Below, piece after piece: positions 15,481 to 16,836 of a stretch of 64,000 bases of DNA. The first letter of the stretch is position 1. Each line of letters begins with the position of its first letter. The DNA comes from Ramlibacter monticola (lineage in GTDB: Bacteria > Pseudomonadota > Gammaproteobacteria > Burkholderiales > Burkholderiaceae_C), in the NCBI RefSeq assembly GCF_016722785.1, contig NZ_JAEQNE010000001.1, forward strand, positions 1,488,001 to 1,552,000, read 5' to 3'. The notes under the pieces were generated by a model. It was given only the letters and a program-made list of their open reading frames with translations, did no database searches and was not told the origin of the DNA. The translations under genes were made by a program, and so were the position numbers.

Positions 15481-16608
15481 TCAGGCCCGATTCCGGCGAT
15501 CTTTCACGGCCTGCGCCAGGACTTCGAGCACCTCCTGCGATTCGTCCCAGCTGATGCAGGCATCGGTAATGCTTTTGCCGTAATCCAGTCCGGTGGGATC
15601 GTCCTTGCCGGGCGTGAATTTCTGGGCCCCCCCGCACAGGTGGCTCTCGACCATCAGGCCGAAGACATTCCGCGAGCCGCCCGCGATCTGGCCGGCGATG
15701 TCCCTGGCCACGACGACCTGGCGTTCGTGCTGCTTGCTGCTGTTCGCGTGGCTGCAATCCACCATCAGCACCGGCGGCAGCTTCGCGGCCTCCAGTTCGC
15801 GGCAGGCGGTGGCGACGCTGTCGGCGTCGTAGTTGGGCGCCTTGCCCCCGCGCAGGATCACGTGGCAGTCGCGGTTGCCGTTGGTCTGGACGATCGCGAC
15901 CTGGCCGTTCTTGTGCACCGACAGGAAGTGGTGCCCGCGCGCCGCGGCCTGGATCGCGTCGGTGGCGATCTTGATGTTGCCGTCGGTGCCGTTCTTGAAG
16001 CCGATGGGCGCCGACAGGCCCGAGGCGAGTTCGCGGTGCACCTGGCTCTCGGTAGTGCGCGCGCCGATGGCGCCCCAGGAGATCAGGTCGCCGATGTACT
16101 GCGGCGAGATCACGTCCAGGAACTCGCTGCCGGCGGGCAGGCCGAGCCGGTTGATCTCGATGAGAAGCTGGCGCGCGATGCGCAGGCCCTCGTCGATCCG
16201 GAAGCTCTCGTCGAGGTACGGGTCGTTGATCAGGCCCTTCCAGCCCACGGTCGTGCGCGGCTTCTCGAAGTACACCCGCATCACGATCTCCAGCGAATCG
16301 CGGTACTTGTCGCGCGCCTCCTTCAGCCGGCGCGCGTAGTCCAGCGCCGCGCCCGGATCGTGGATCGAGCACGGCCCGATCACCACCAGCAGGCGGTCGT
16401 CCTGCCCCGCCATGATGTTGTGGATGCTGCGCCGCGTCGCGCTGATCAGGCTCTCCACCGCGGTGCCCCGGATCGGGAAGAAGCGGATCAGGTGTTCGGG
16501 CGGGGGCAGCACGGTGATGTCCTTGATGCGTTGGTCGTCGGTCTGGCTGGTTCGGTCGACGGGGTGCGCATGCCAGGCATCGGCGGCGGCTGCTTTGGGC
16601 GGGTTCAT
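15481..16608 (-). CDS. aroG: 3-deoxy-7-phosphoheptulonate (DAHP) synthase, class I
   Basis: Condenses phosphoenolpyruvate and erythrose 4-phosphate to DAHP, the committed step of the shikimate pathway. The product has 375 residues, of the AroF/G/H class. Visible landmarks are the substrate-binding stretch VVIGPCSIHDP, YFEKPRTTVGWKG, the phosphate/metal region PIGFKNGTDGN, and MVDCSHANSSKQ. Which aromatic amino acid inhibits it cannot be safely read. The start ATG at 16608 follows an attenuator-type leader (16649-16780), so expression is probably set by charged tRNA levels. The symbol aroG is used for the family; an aroF or aroH equivalent is possible. Confidence 0.93.
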   Translation of the reverse strand: MNPPKAAAADAWHAHPVDRTSQTDDQRIKDITVLPPPEHLIRFFPIRGTAVESLISATRRSIHNIMAGQDDRLLVVIGPCSIHDPGAALDYARRLKEARDKYRDSLEIVMRVYFEKPRTTVGWKGLINDPYLDESFRIDEGLRIARQLLIEINRLGLPAGSEFLDVISPQYIGDLISWGAIGARTTESQVHRELASGLSAPIGFKNGTDGNIKIATDAIQAAARGHHFLSVHKNGQVAIVQTNGNRDCHVILRGGKAPNYDADSVATACRELEAAKLPPVLMVDCSHANSSKQHERQVVVARDIAGQIAGGSRNVFGLMVESHLCGGAQKFTPGKDDPTGLDYGKSITDACISWDESQEVLEVLAQAVKDRRNRA

Positions 16609-16648
16609 GACACGGTTCTCGCTGGTGGTTGGTTTTGGGGGCCCAAGA

Positions 16649-16677
16649 AAAAACCGCCGGGGTTGCCGGCGGTTTTT
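16649..16677 (-). terminator. Intrinsic terminator/attenuator hairpin in the DAHP synthase leader
   Basis: Perfect 12-bp stem AAAAACCGCCGG / CCGGCGGTTTTT with a 5-nt loop, followed on the minus strand by a T-run (six T in total including the stem end). It lies 41 nt upstream of the DAHP synthase start and 31 nt downstream of the leader-peptide stop. Its 5' arm can alternatively pair with CCGGCGG inside the leader ORF (16723-16729), the expected antiterminator. Confidence 0.85.
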
Positions 16678-16708
16678 CGAGGATTCCTTGCGTTTGTTGC
16701 GGGTACGC

Positions 16709-16780
16709 TCAGATCTCTCTTCCGCCGGGGGCGCAGGAGAACCAAAAGTAGCCAAAAAAGAAGGCGCGAACGGAACGCAT
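16709..16780 (-). CDS. Aromatic-rich leader peptide of the DAHP synthase attenuator
   Basis: Short ORF of 23 codons (ATG at 16780, TGA at 16709-16711) in the leader of the DAHP synthase gene. Residues 7-14 read FFFGYFWF: five Phe, one Tyr and one Trp among eight codons. Codons 17-20 (Ala-Pro-Gly-Gly) encode the RNA segment that can pair with the 5' arm of the terminator. A ribosome stalled on the aromatic codons would leave that segment free and form the antiterminator; a ribosome reaching the stop would cover it and allow termination. There is no clear ribosome binding site. A possible promoter (TGGACA at 16809-16814, TAAATT/TTAAAT near 16787-16793) would start the RNA almost at the ATG, so the leader may be leaderless. 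Confidence 0.82.
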   Translation of the reverse strand: MRSVRAFFFGYFWFSCAPGGREI

Positions 16781-16836
16781 GGAGTCAATTTAACACAGGC
16801 TGGTGGGCTGTCCAGCACGATCGTCGGCGCGTTGCA

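Follow-up and report, generated by a model that had tools for sequence, protein, structure and literature searches.

A candidate leaderless attenuator with phenylalanine, tyrosine and tryptophan codons upstream of the DAHP synthase gene of Ramlibacter monticola

The window analyzed here is a stretch of 64,000 nucleotides from Ramlibacter monticola, and the features of interest surround a DAHP synthase gene. A reading made from the letters alone (the sequence-only reading) had described an aromatic ORF, a CCGGCGG segment, a 12-bp terminator and a DAHP synthase gene, without naming the strand. All of these parts are present, and they lie on the minus strand as follows.

17415-16837, minus strand: co-oriented gene 5' of the leader, 192 aa (from the gene position)
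16787..16814, minus strand: predicted sigma-70-like promoter TGGACA-N16-TAAATT with an extended -10 (TG) (promoter scan, 1 found, shuffle mean 0.0)
16709..16780, minus strand: leader ORF of 23 codons, MRSVRAFFFGYFWFSCAPGGREI (ORF translation), whose start codon is the predicted transcription start
16739..16762, minus strand: putative aromatic control codons FFFGYFWF, residues 7-14 of the leader ORF (translation)
16722..16728, minus strand: segment 2, CCGGCGG, within the leader ORF, the putative 5' half of the antiterminator (sequence, folds)
Directly after segment 2, minus strand: AAGAGAG, part of which lengthens the antiterminator helix (folds)
16666..16728, minus strand: putative antiterminator hairpin of segment 2 and the terminator 5' arm (window fold -24.6 kcal/mol; swap tests)
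16648..16677, minus strand: intrinsic terminator AAAAACCGCCGG-CAACC-CCGGCGGTTTTT at 16677-16649 followed by one further T, with a CAACC loop and a T-run (sequence, fold, alignment)
15481..16608, minus strand, ATG at 16608: DAHP synthase of class I, AroFGH type, the putative regulated gene (TIGR00034, 535.6 bits, cut-off 173.2)

The end of the -10 box (16787) lies 6 nt from the leader ATG (16780), and no Shine-Dalgarno sequence was seen before the leader ORF in the window. The terminator stem comprises 12 bp, and 13 pairs were obtained in the fold of the leader region of the window. This region (16782-16609) folded better than its shuffled versions (z -2.63), of which 2 of 200 were as good. A simple terminator scan of the window did not list the terminator, perhaps because A-U pairs consume the T-run, and it is the fold and the alignment that show it. 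Among the matches listed, the closest relatives of the enzyme were those of a Comamonadaceae MAG (87%) and of Ramlibacter (86%). The window genome encodes a second DAHP synthase with 54% identity to that of the window (L082), and no aromatic leader was found at this gene.

Conservation and predicted start of the leader

With the window's DAHP synthase as query, the best 80 of at least 594 matches were taken as relatives, which together with the window gave 81 upstream regions. In 72 of them, an ORF with a dense aromatic run preceded a CCGCC/GGCGG terminator, and this recurrence argues that the arrangement did not arise by chance. One of the 72 is a weak case (L053), with a less rich ORF and another stem, and was excluded from the alignment A1 of 71 sequences. 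Upstream sequence was sufficient in 79 relatives, the remaining one (L029) offering only 10 nt. Eight of the 79 had no leader, and none of these eight was matched by the broader of our two leader models (R2). Four of them are records titled Polynucleobacter, two are Cupriavidus, and the others are L076 and L078. The records titled Polynucleobacter are split, since L035 and L036 have the leader and L051, L054, L055 and L059 do not. Variovorax carries the leader in L007 and L012.

The aromatic stretch appears to be conserved at the protein level, and synonymous codons are in use for both Phe and Tyr. Over the 72 leaders, TTT occurred 195 times and TTC 112 times, while TAC and TAT occurred 69 and 47 times, respectively. 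For the GGCGG of the leader ORF, the reading frame was 0 in 49 leaders and 2 in another 16, with the exact string missing in seven; because two frames are used, the constraint seems to act on the nucleotides and not on the encoded amino acids. Moreover, the core stem CCGCC/GGCGG and the T-run were almost invariant in the alignments. The sequence-only reading had staked its case on the conservation of the short ORF and of the two alternative pairings in relatives, and both are conserved (72/81 regions, with the folds and swap tests described below).

In 66 of the 72 leaders a TAnnnT box preceded the start codon, at a distance of 6 bases in 17, 7 bases in 35, and 8 bases in 14. An extended -10 box (TG) at 6-8 nt was found in 65/72 leaders, compared with 3/18,700 control positions upstream, and an SD-like sequence before the start codon in only two. 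In these counts, in-frame starts with a -10 box were preferred and six were assigned manually (L031, L052, L065, L067, L077, and L079); a start rule blind to the promoter returned the same start in 72/72 leaders and the same counts (66 with the box, 65 extended, 2 SD-like). The transcript is therefore probably leaderless, given the distance of 6-8 nt between box and start codon. Its conservation bears out what the sequence-only reading had guessed from a single locus. A transcription start downstream of the leader ORF would, according to the same reading, have counted against it; the promoter predicted here is on the upstream side of the ORF.

Beyond the near relatives the picture is more mixed. 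The -10 box was found in 5/5, 4/4, 3/3, and 6/7 leaders of the Burkholderiales families labeled f4, f13, f44, and f23, and in none of those of f8 (0/10), f32 (0/5), f11, f3, and f20 (0/3 each). Altogether 74 leaders from other families and from outside the order were tallied, with starts taken from a scoring that favored a -10 box; the strict box rule gave 30/74, which is an undercount for alphaproteobacterial boxes of the form CTANNN, and SD-like sequences were again rare (2/74). A looser box, nTAnnn at 7-8 bases before the ATG, was present in 19/19 leaders (the 17 from outside the class described below and two from Paracoccus), and TGACA stood upstream of it in 18 of the 19, the control for the full pattern being 108/96,540. 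For Paracoccus the upstream one of two in-frame ATGs was used in this count and the other ATG in the tally of 74. Similar elements have been reported, namely a TGnTA motif, resembling an extended -10, that precedes leaderless mRNAs of Bradyrhizobium japonicum (PMC4842269) and a TA-rich motif directly upstream of leaderless transcripts in Burkholderia cenocepacia (PMC4603805).

Taxonomic range and control codons

Two models of the leader, R1 and the broader R2, were used to search genomes within the phylum of the window. In the family of the window, R1 matched 292/299 genomes and 124/126 genera, nearly always in a single copy (E <= 1e-4). In an even sample of the order Burkholderiales it matched 131/399 genomes (E <= 0.01), a count that includes terminator-only matches; full-length matches were obtained in about 102 genomes, leaving out the weak matches in G014 and G074, which had no DAHP synthase. 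We inspected 69 loci of the order: the 29 top-scoring ones other than the window, plus 40 more chosen from the list across families. DAHP synthase was encoded downstream in 66 of them, and 62 of these 66 had a leader with an aromatic run. One inspected locus (L158) is a distant paralogue.

In the sample of the class, R1 matched 8/369 genomes, five of them outside the order and one of these five by the terminator only. In the phylum sample, R2 matched 40/249 genomes (E <= 0.001), of which 20 lay outside the class. In three of these 20 the match covered the terminator only; the loci of the remaining 17 all had an aromatic ORF and a DAHP synthase gene (55-61% identity), with a hairpin and T-run recognizable by eye, and these 17 genomes are probably Alphaproteobacteria. 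Furthermore, R2 matched Paracoccus denitrificans PD1222 (6.6e-7) and P. pantotrophus (3.3e-6), where the downstream gene is annotated as 3-deoxy-7-phosphoheptulonate synthase and the neighbor upstream of the leader is divergent. Plasmid-collection records of Burkholderia stagnalis, Cupriavidus, Aeromonas, and Vibrio (L189-L192) gave no leader match.

Two single cases were recorded during this survey. Genome G301 carries two DAHP synthase genes on two contigs (L128 and L129). Both are preceded by aromatic leaders that closely resemble each other, and this could reflect a duplication or an assembly mixture. In a record titled Solimonas sp. SE-A11 (L043), a DAHP synthase 81% identical to that of the window is preceded by a Burkholderiales-like leader. 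The four other copies looked at from the class outside the order had DAHP synthases 61-65% identical to the window's. The leader and enzyme of Solimonas sp. SE-A11 were possibly acquired by transfer.

The aromatic residues encoded by the leaders were also compared. In the first 18 residues of the 72 leaders near the window's gene, the combination FYW was found in 60, FY in nine, F alone in two, and FW in one, so that Tyr occurred in 69/72 and Trp in 61/72. In the first 20 residues of 51 leaders from other Burkholderiales families, FYW occurred in 19, FY in 28, and FW and F in two each, and all three aromatic residues were present in 23/23 leaders from outside the order. Phe was found in all 74 of these more distant leaders. 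Phe is thus present in every leader tallied and Tyr in nearly every one, while Trp depends on the lineage. The sequence-only reading had suggested a single sensor for all three end products. The codon content of the leaders would fit such a sensor of the pathway's three products in the family of the window, although 12 of the 72 near leaders lack Trp codons, Tyr codons or both. In the other Burkholderiales families, one or two of the three residues are missing from 32 of the 51 leaders. In three loci of family f44 (L143, L144, and L150), the leader RNA and the DAHP synthase gene are kept and the aromatic run is lost, which suggests a decayed or re-purposed sensor.

Antiterminator and terminator

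In the folds inspected, nearly all 72 leaders showed a hairpin of (C)CGGCGG with CCGCCGG, often lengthened by the pairing of GAGAG with CTC. It engages the 5' arm of the terminator, and the two pairings are mutually exclusive. When each sequence was folded from its last aromatic codon through the terminator 5' arm, the median energy of this antiterminator stretch over the 72 leaders was -22.4 kcal/mol, compared with -19.1 kcal/mol for the terminator alone. Stalled ribosomes were modeled with a footprint of 15 bases from the start of the P-site codon, the seven leaders without the exact GGCGG being left unscored. Stalls at every aromatic codon left GGCGG free in 61/65 leaders, and with a stall at the last aromatic codon the pairing probability of GGCGG with the 5' arm exceeded 0.5 in 65/65.

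The antiterminator halves were then exchanged between sequences. Native halves gave a mean of -15.45, compared with -14.21 (sd 0.21) for permuted ones, and none of 10,000 permutations was as good. This test ignores relatedness, and related sequences could give such a result without any constraint, so we relied on a version controlled for kinship, in which each sequence was paired with its closest unused non-identical relative on the DAHP synthase tree (101/125 sequences usable). Among 50 independent pairs, the native combination was better in 28, worse in 14, and equal in eight (sign test p 0.022, Wilcoxon p 0.0005). The 11 pairs of very close sequences (distance <0.15) showed no effect, with two better, four worse, and five equal. 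The controlled test supports the antiterminator pairing, and together with the modeled stalls it agrees with the proposal in the sequence-only reading that CCGGCGG may pair with the CCGCCGG of the terminator 5' arm.

A three-way association was also seen at the base flanking the core. After 12 of the 125 sequences were dropped for lack of the exact motif, segment 2, the 5' arm and the 3' arm read C/G/C in 50 and T/A/T in 23 of 113. We did not use this as proof, because few changes underlie it on the DAHP synthase tree: two joint changes were counted at this base against 1.04 expected (p 0.28, not significant; L125 was misread there, as seen by eye). RNAalifold on the full alignment returned the terminator alone, with eight pairs, one of them with a double change, and no antiterminator. 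Presumably it misses the antiterminator because the same arm is competed for and the spacer is gapped; per-sequence folds and swap tests were therefore used.

The weakest point of the attenuator model is the geometry of its 'off' state. A ribosome at the stop codon covers at least three bases of GGCGG in 21/65 leaders, the window included, and in the other 44 the stop codon lies 21-31 bases downstream of GGCGG. The simplest 'off' picture thus holds in the window and fails in most relatives, as the stop-codon ribosome masks the motif in so few of them. Protective pairing of GGCGG with upstream ORF sequence had a probability >0.5 in 48/65 leaders. In the 44 leaders the 'off' state would have to be brought about by the moving ribosome, by a ribosome within the antiterminator, or by re-pairing of GGCGG with an upstream part of the ORF.

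Proposed attenuation, rival explanations and known systems

These comparisons of sequences and predicted folds make it very likely, in our view, that DAHP synthase is controlled by ribosome-mediated transcription attenuation responding to charged tRNA-Phe, tRNA-Tyr, and, in most near relatives, tRNA-Trp. RNA polymerase would start at the leader AUG or within about two bases of it, and a ribosome would load on the 5' end of the RNA without a Shine-Dalgarno site. When charged tRNA-Phe, -Tyr, or -Trp is scarce, the ribosome would stall in the aromatic run. (C)CGGCGG and the following bases would then be free to pair with the 5' arm of the terminator, namely ACCGCCGG with its preceding bases. With this antiterminator formed, the terminator would not form and DAHP synthase would be transcribed. 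When all three tRNAs are charged, the ribosome would pass (C)CGGCGG, the antiterminator would not form in time, and the CCGCCGG/CCGGCGG terminator would end transcription before DAHP synthase. The RNA ends, the translation of the ORF, the stalling and the amino acids that matter are predicted elements of this model.

A broader form of the model can be put forward, and we hold it tentatively, at somewhat less than an even chance. One old, leaderless, pan-aromatic attenuator would guard DAHP synthase in alpha-, beta- and some gammaproteobacteria, reading the joint charging of tRNA-Phe, -Tyr, and -Trp at the first step of the pathway without a ribosome binding site or the classical pause-and-wait step; since the RNA would start at the AUG, a 70S ribosome could engage once the 5' end leaves the polymerase. 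Alternatively, the same attenuator may sense mainly Phe, with the Tyr and Trp codons having little effect. Phe is the only aromatic residue common to all leaders tallied, and the aroR leader of Corynebacterium glutamicum (Phe-Tyr-Phe) is described as responding to limitation for Phe and not for Tyr (PMC11802643). However, the frequency of Tyr and Trp in the near leaders and the presence of all three residues in every leader from outside the order speak against it, and we regard this alternative as possible but rather unlikely.

Explanations that dispense with codon charging or with the terminator as the main output fare worse. It is improbable that the leader senses a nascent peptide or a small molecule, as an arrest peptide or a riboswitch would. 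Near relatives differ rather little in the motif around the aromatic run (YFWF, in many followed by S or P), but the frame shifts after the run while the nucleotides stay, the N-terminal part of the leader is variable, and there is no Rfam match at the gathering score. Even less probable is Rho or translational control of the DAHP synthase gene as the main output, with the terminator secondary: no result here favors it, although the antiterminator could also influence downstream structure, and the near-invariance of the core stem and T-run speaks against it. Finally, the hairpin could be a mere terminator of the 192-aa gene upstream, which is on the same strand, and the short ORF a product of chance. 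A conserved promoter box directly before the leader and the aromatic ORF in 72/81 regions argue against this, and in Paracoccus the terminator cannot end the upstream gene, because that gene is divergent; we find this last explanation barely credible.

The trp and pheA attenuators of E. coli share with the attenuator proposed here the control codons in a leader ORF and the competition of an ORF segment for a terminator arm; they differ in using a single amino acid each and in controlling other genes. On the window, Phe_leader reached 17.3 bits (gathering score, 55), and neither it nor Trp_leader gave a match at or above the gathering score. Rfam 15 at the gathering score gave no match in the window stretch or at six other loci, and at E up to 10 no fitting family was found on the leader stretch of the window.

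A precedent is the C. glutamicum aroR-aroF attenuator, which has been studied experimentally (Neshat et al., 2014, cited via PMC11802643 and PMC4046766). As in our model, a leader peptide precedes DAHP synthase and ribosome stalling raises transcription. In contrast, that bacterium is an actinobacterium, and the account in PMC11802643 mentions no Trp and describes a response to Phe and none to Tyr. The view in the sequence-only reading that such attenuators are little described outside enterobacteria is thus not quite right. In Sinorhizobium meliloti, the trpL/rnTrpL attenuator RNA likewise starts at the leader AUG, and translation of the leader ORF was detected by Ribo-seq; unlike the leader described here, it controls trpE and senses Trp, with no DAHP synthase involved in these descriptions (PMC7298713, PMC10117765). 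Attenuators have also been predicted before DAHP synthase genes in Acholeplasma (uORFC-13-1, with a predicted RBS; PMC8632094), for Shewanella aroF (PMC2659441), and for Vibrio aroA-tyrA (PMC1173090); these are other lineages, and the descriptions in these sources contain no leaderless leader with three amino acids. In searches of openly available full texts, we found no account of this DAHP synthase leader in Proteobacteria. The kind of mechanism is therefore known, with the target in C. glutamicum aroR-aroF and the leaderless form in S. meliloti trpL, and this leader was not found described. It is unusual in that a leaderless start and control codons for three amino acids come together at the entry step of the pathway.

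DAHP synthase governs the entry of carbon into aromatic synthesis, and in E. coli TyrR and TrpR act on the DNA to control the genes of its isoenzymes (PMC5343134). If the proposed attenuation is true, one RNA switch, almost always in a single copy, would read the end products of the pathway via tRNAs in nearly the whole family of the window, and the same switch would operate in a share of the remaining Burkholderiales as well as in some Alphaproteobacteria. It could then be annotated as a new RNA family and would offer a natural collection for the study of leaderless translation-transcription coupling, while aromatic overproduction in bacteria that carry the leader would gain a simple handle.

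As a separate observation, trpE of the window's family has its own short upstream ORF. After two of 25 loci were dropped as partial trpE matches, an ORF with the motif AW[PL]WR was present in 21 of the 23 loci inspected (L159, L193-L214), and the two without it (L204 and L206) have shortened flanks. No convincing terminator followed, with none in 13 of 15 loci and a weak one in two, and Rfam gave no match near threshold on the trpE upstream region of the window genome (L159). There the ORF reads MFIHRTTITGCSDRGAWPWRKPVQVRT and lies about 259 nt upstream of the trpE match (G000:C13). An extended -10 box was located 5-8 nt before the ORF start in 16/23 loci, with starts chosen to favor such a box. 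In addition, the stretch around GACCGGGGAGCCTGGCCCTGGCG hardly varied among most of these 15 loci.
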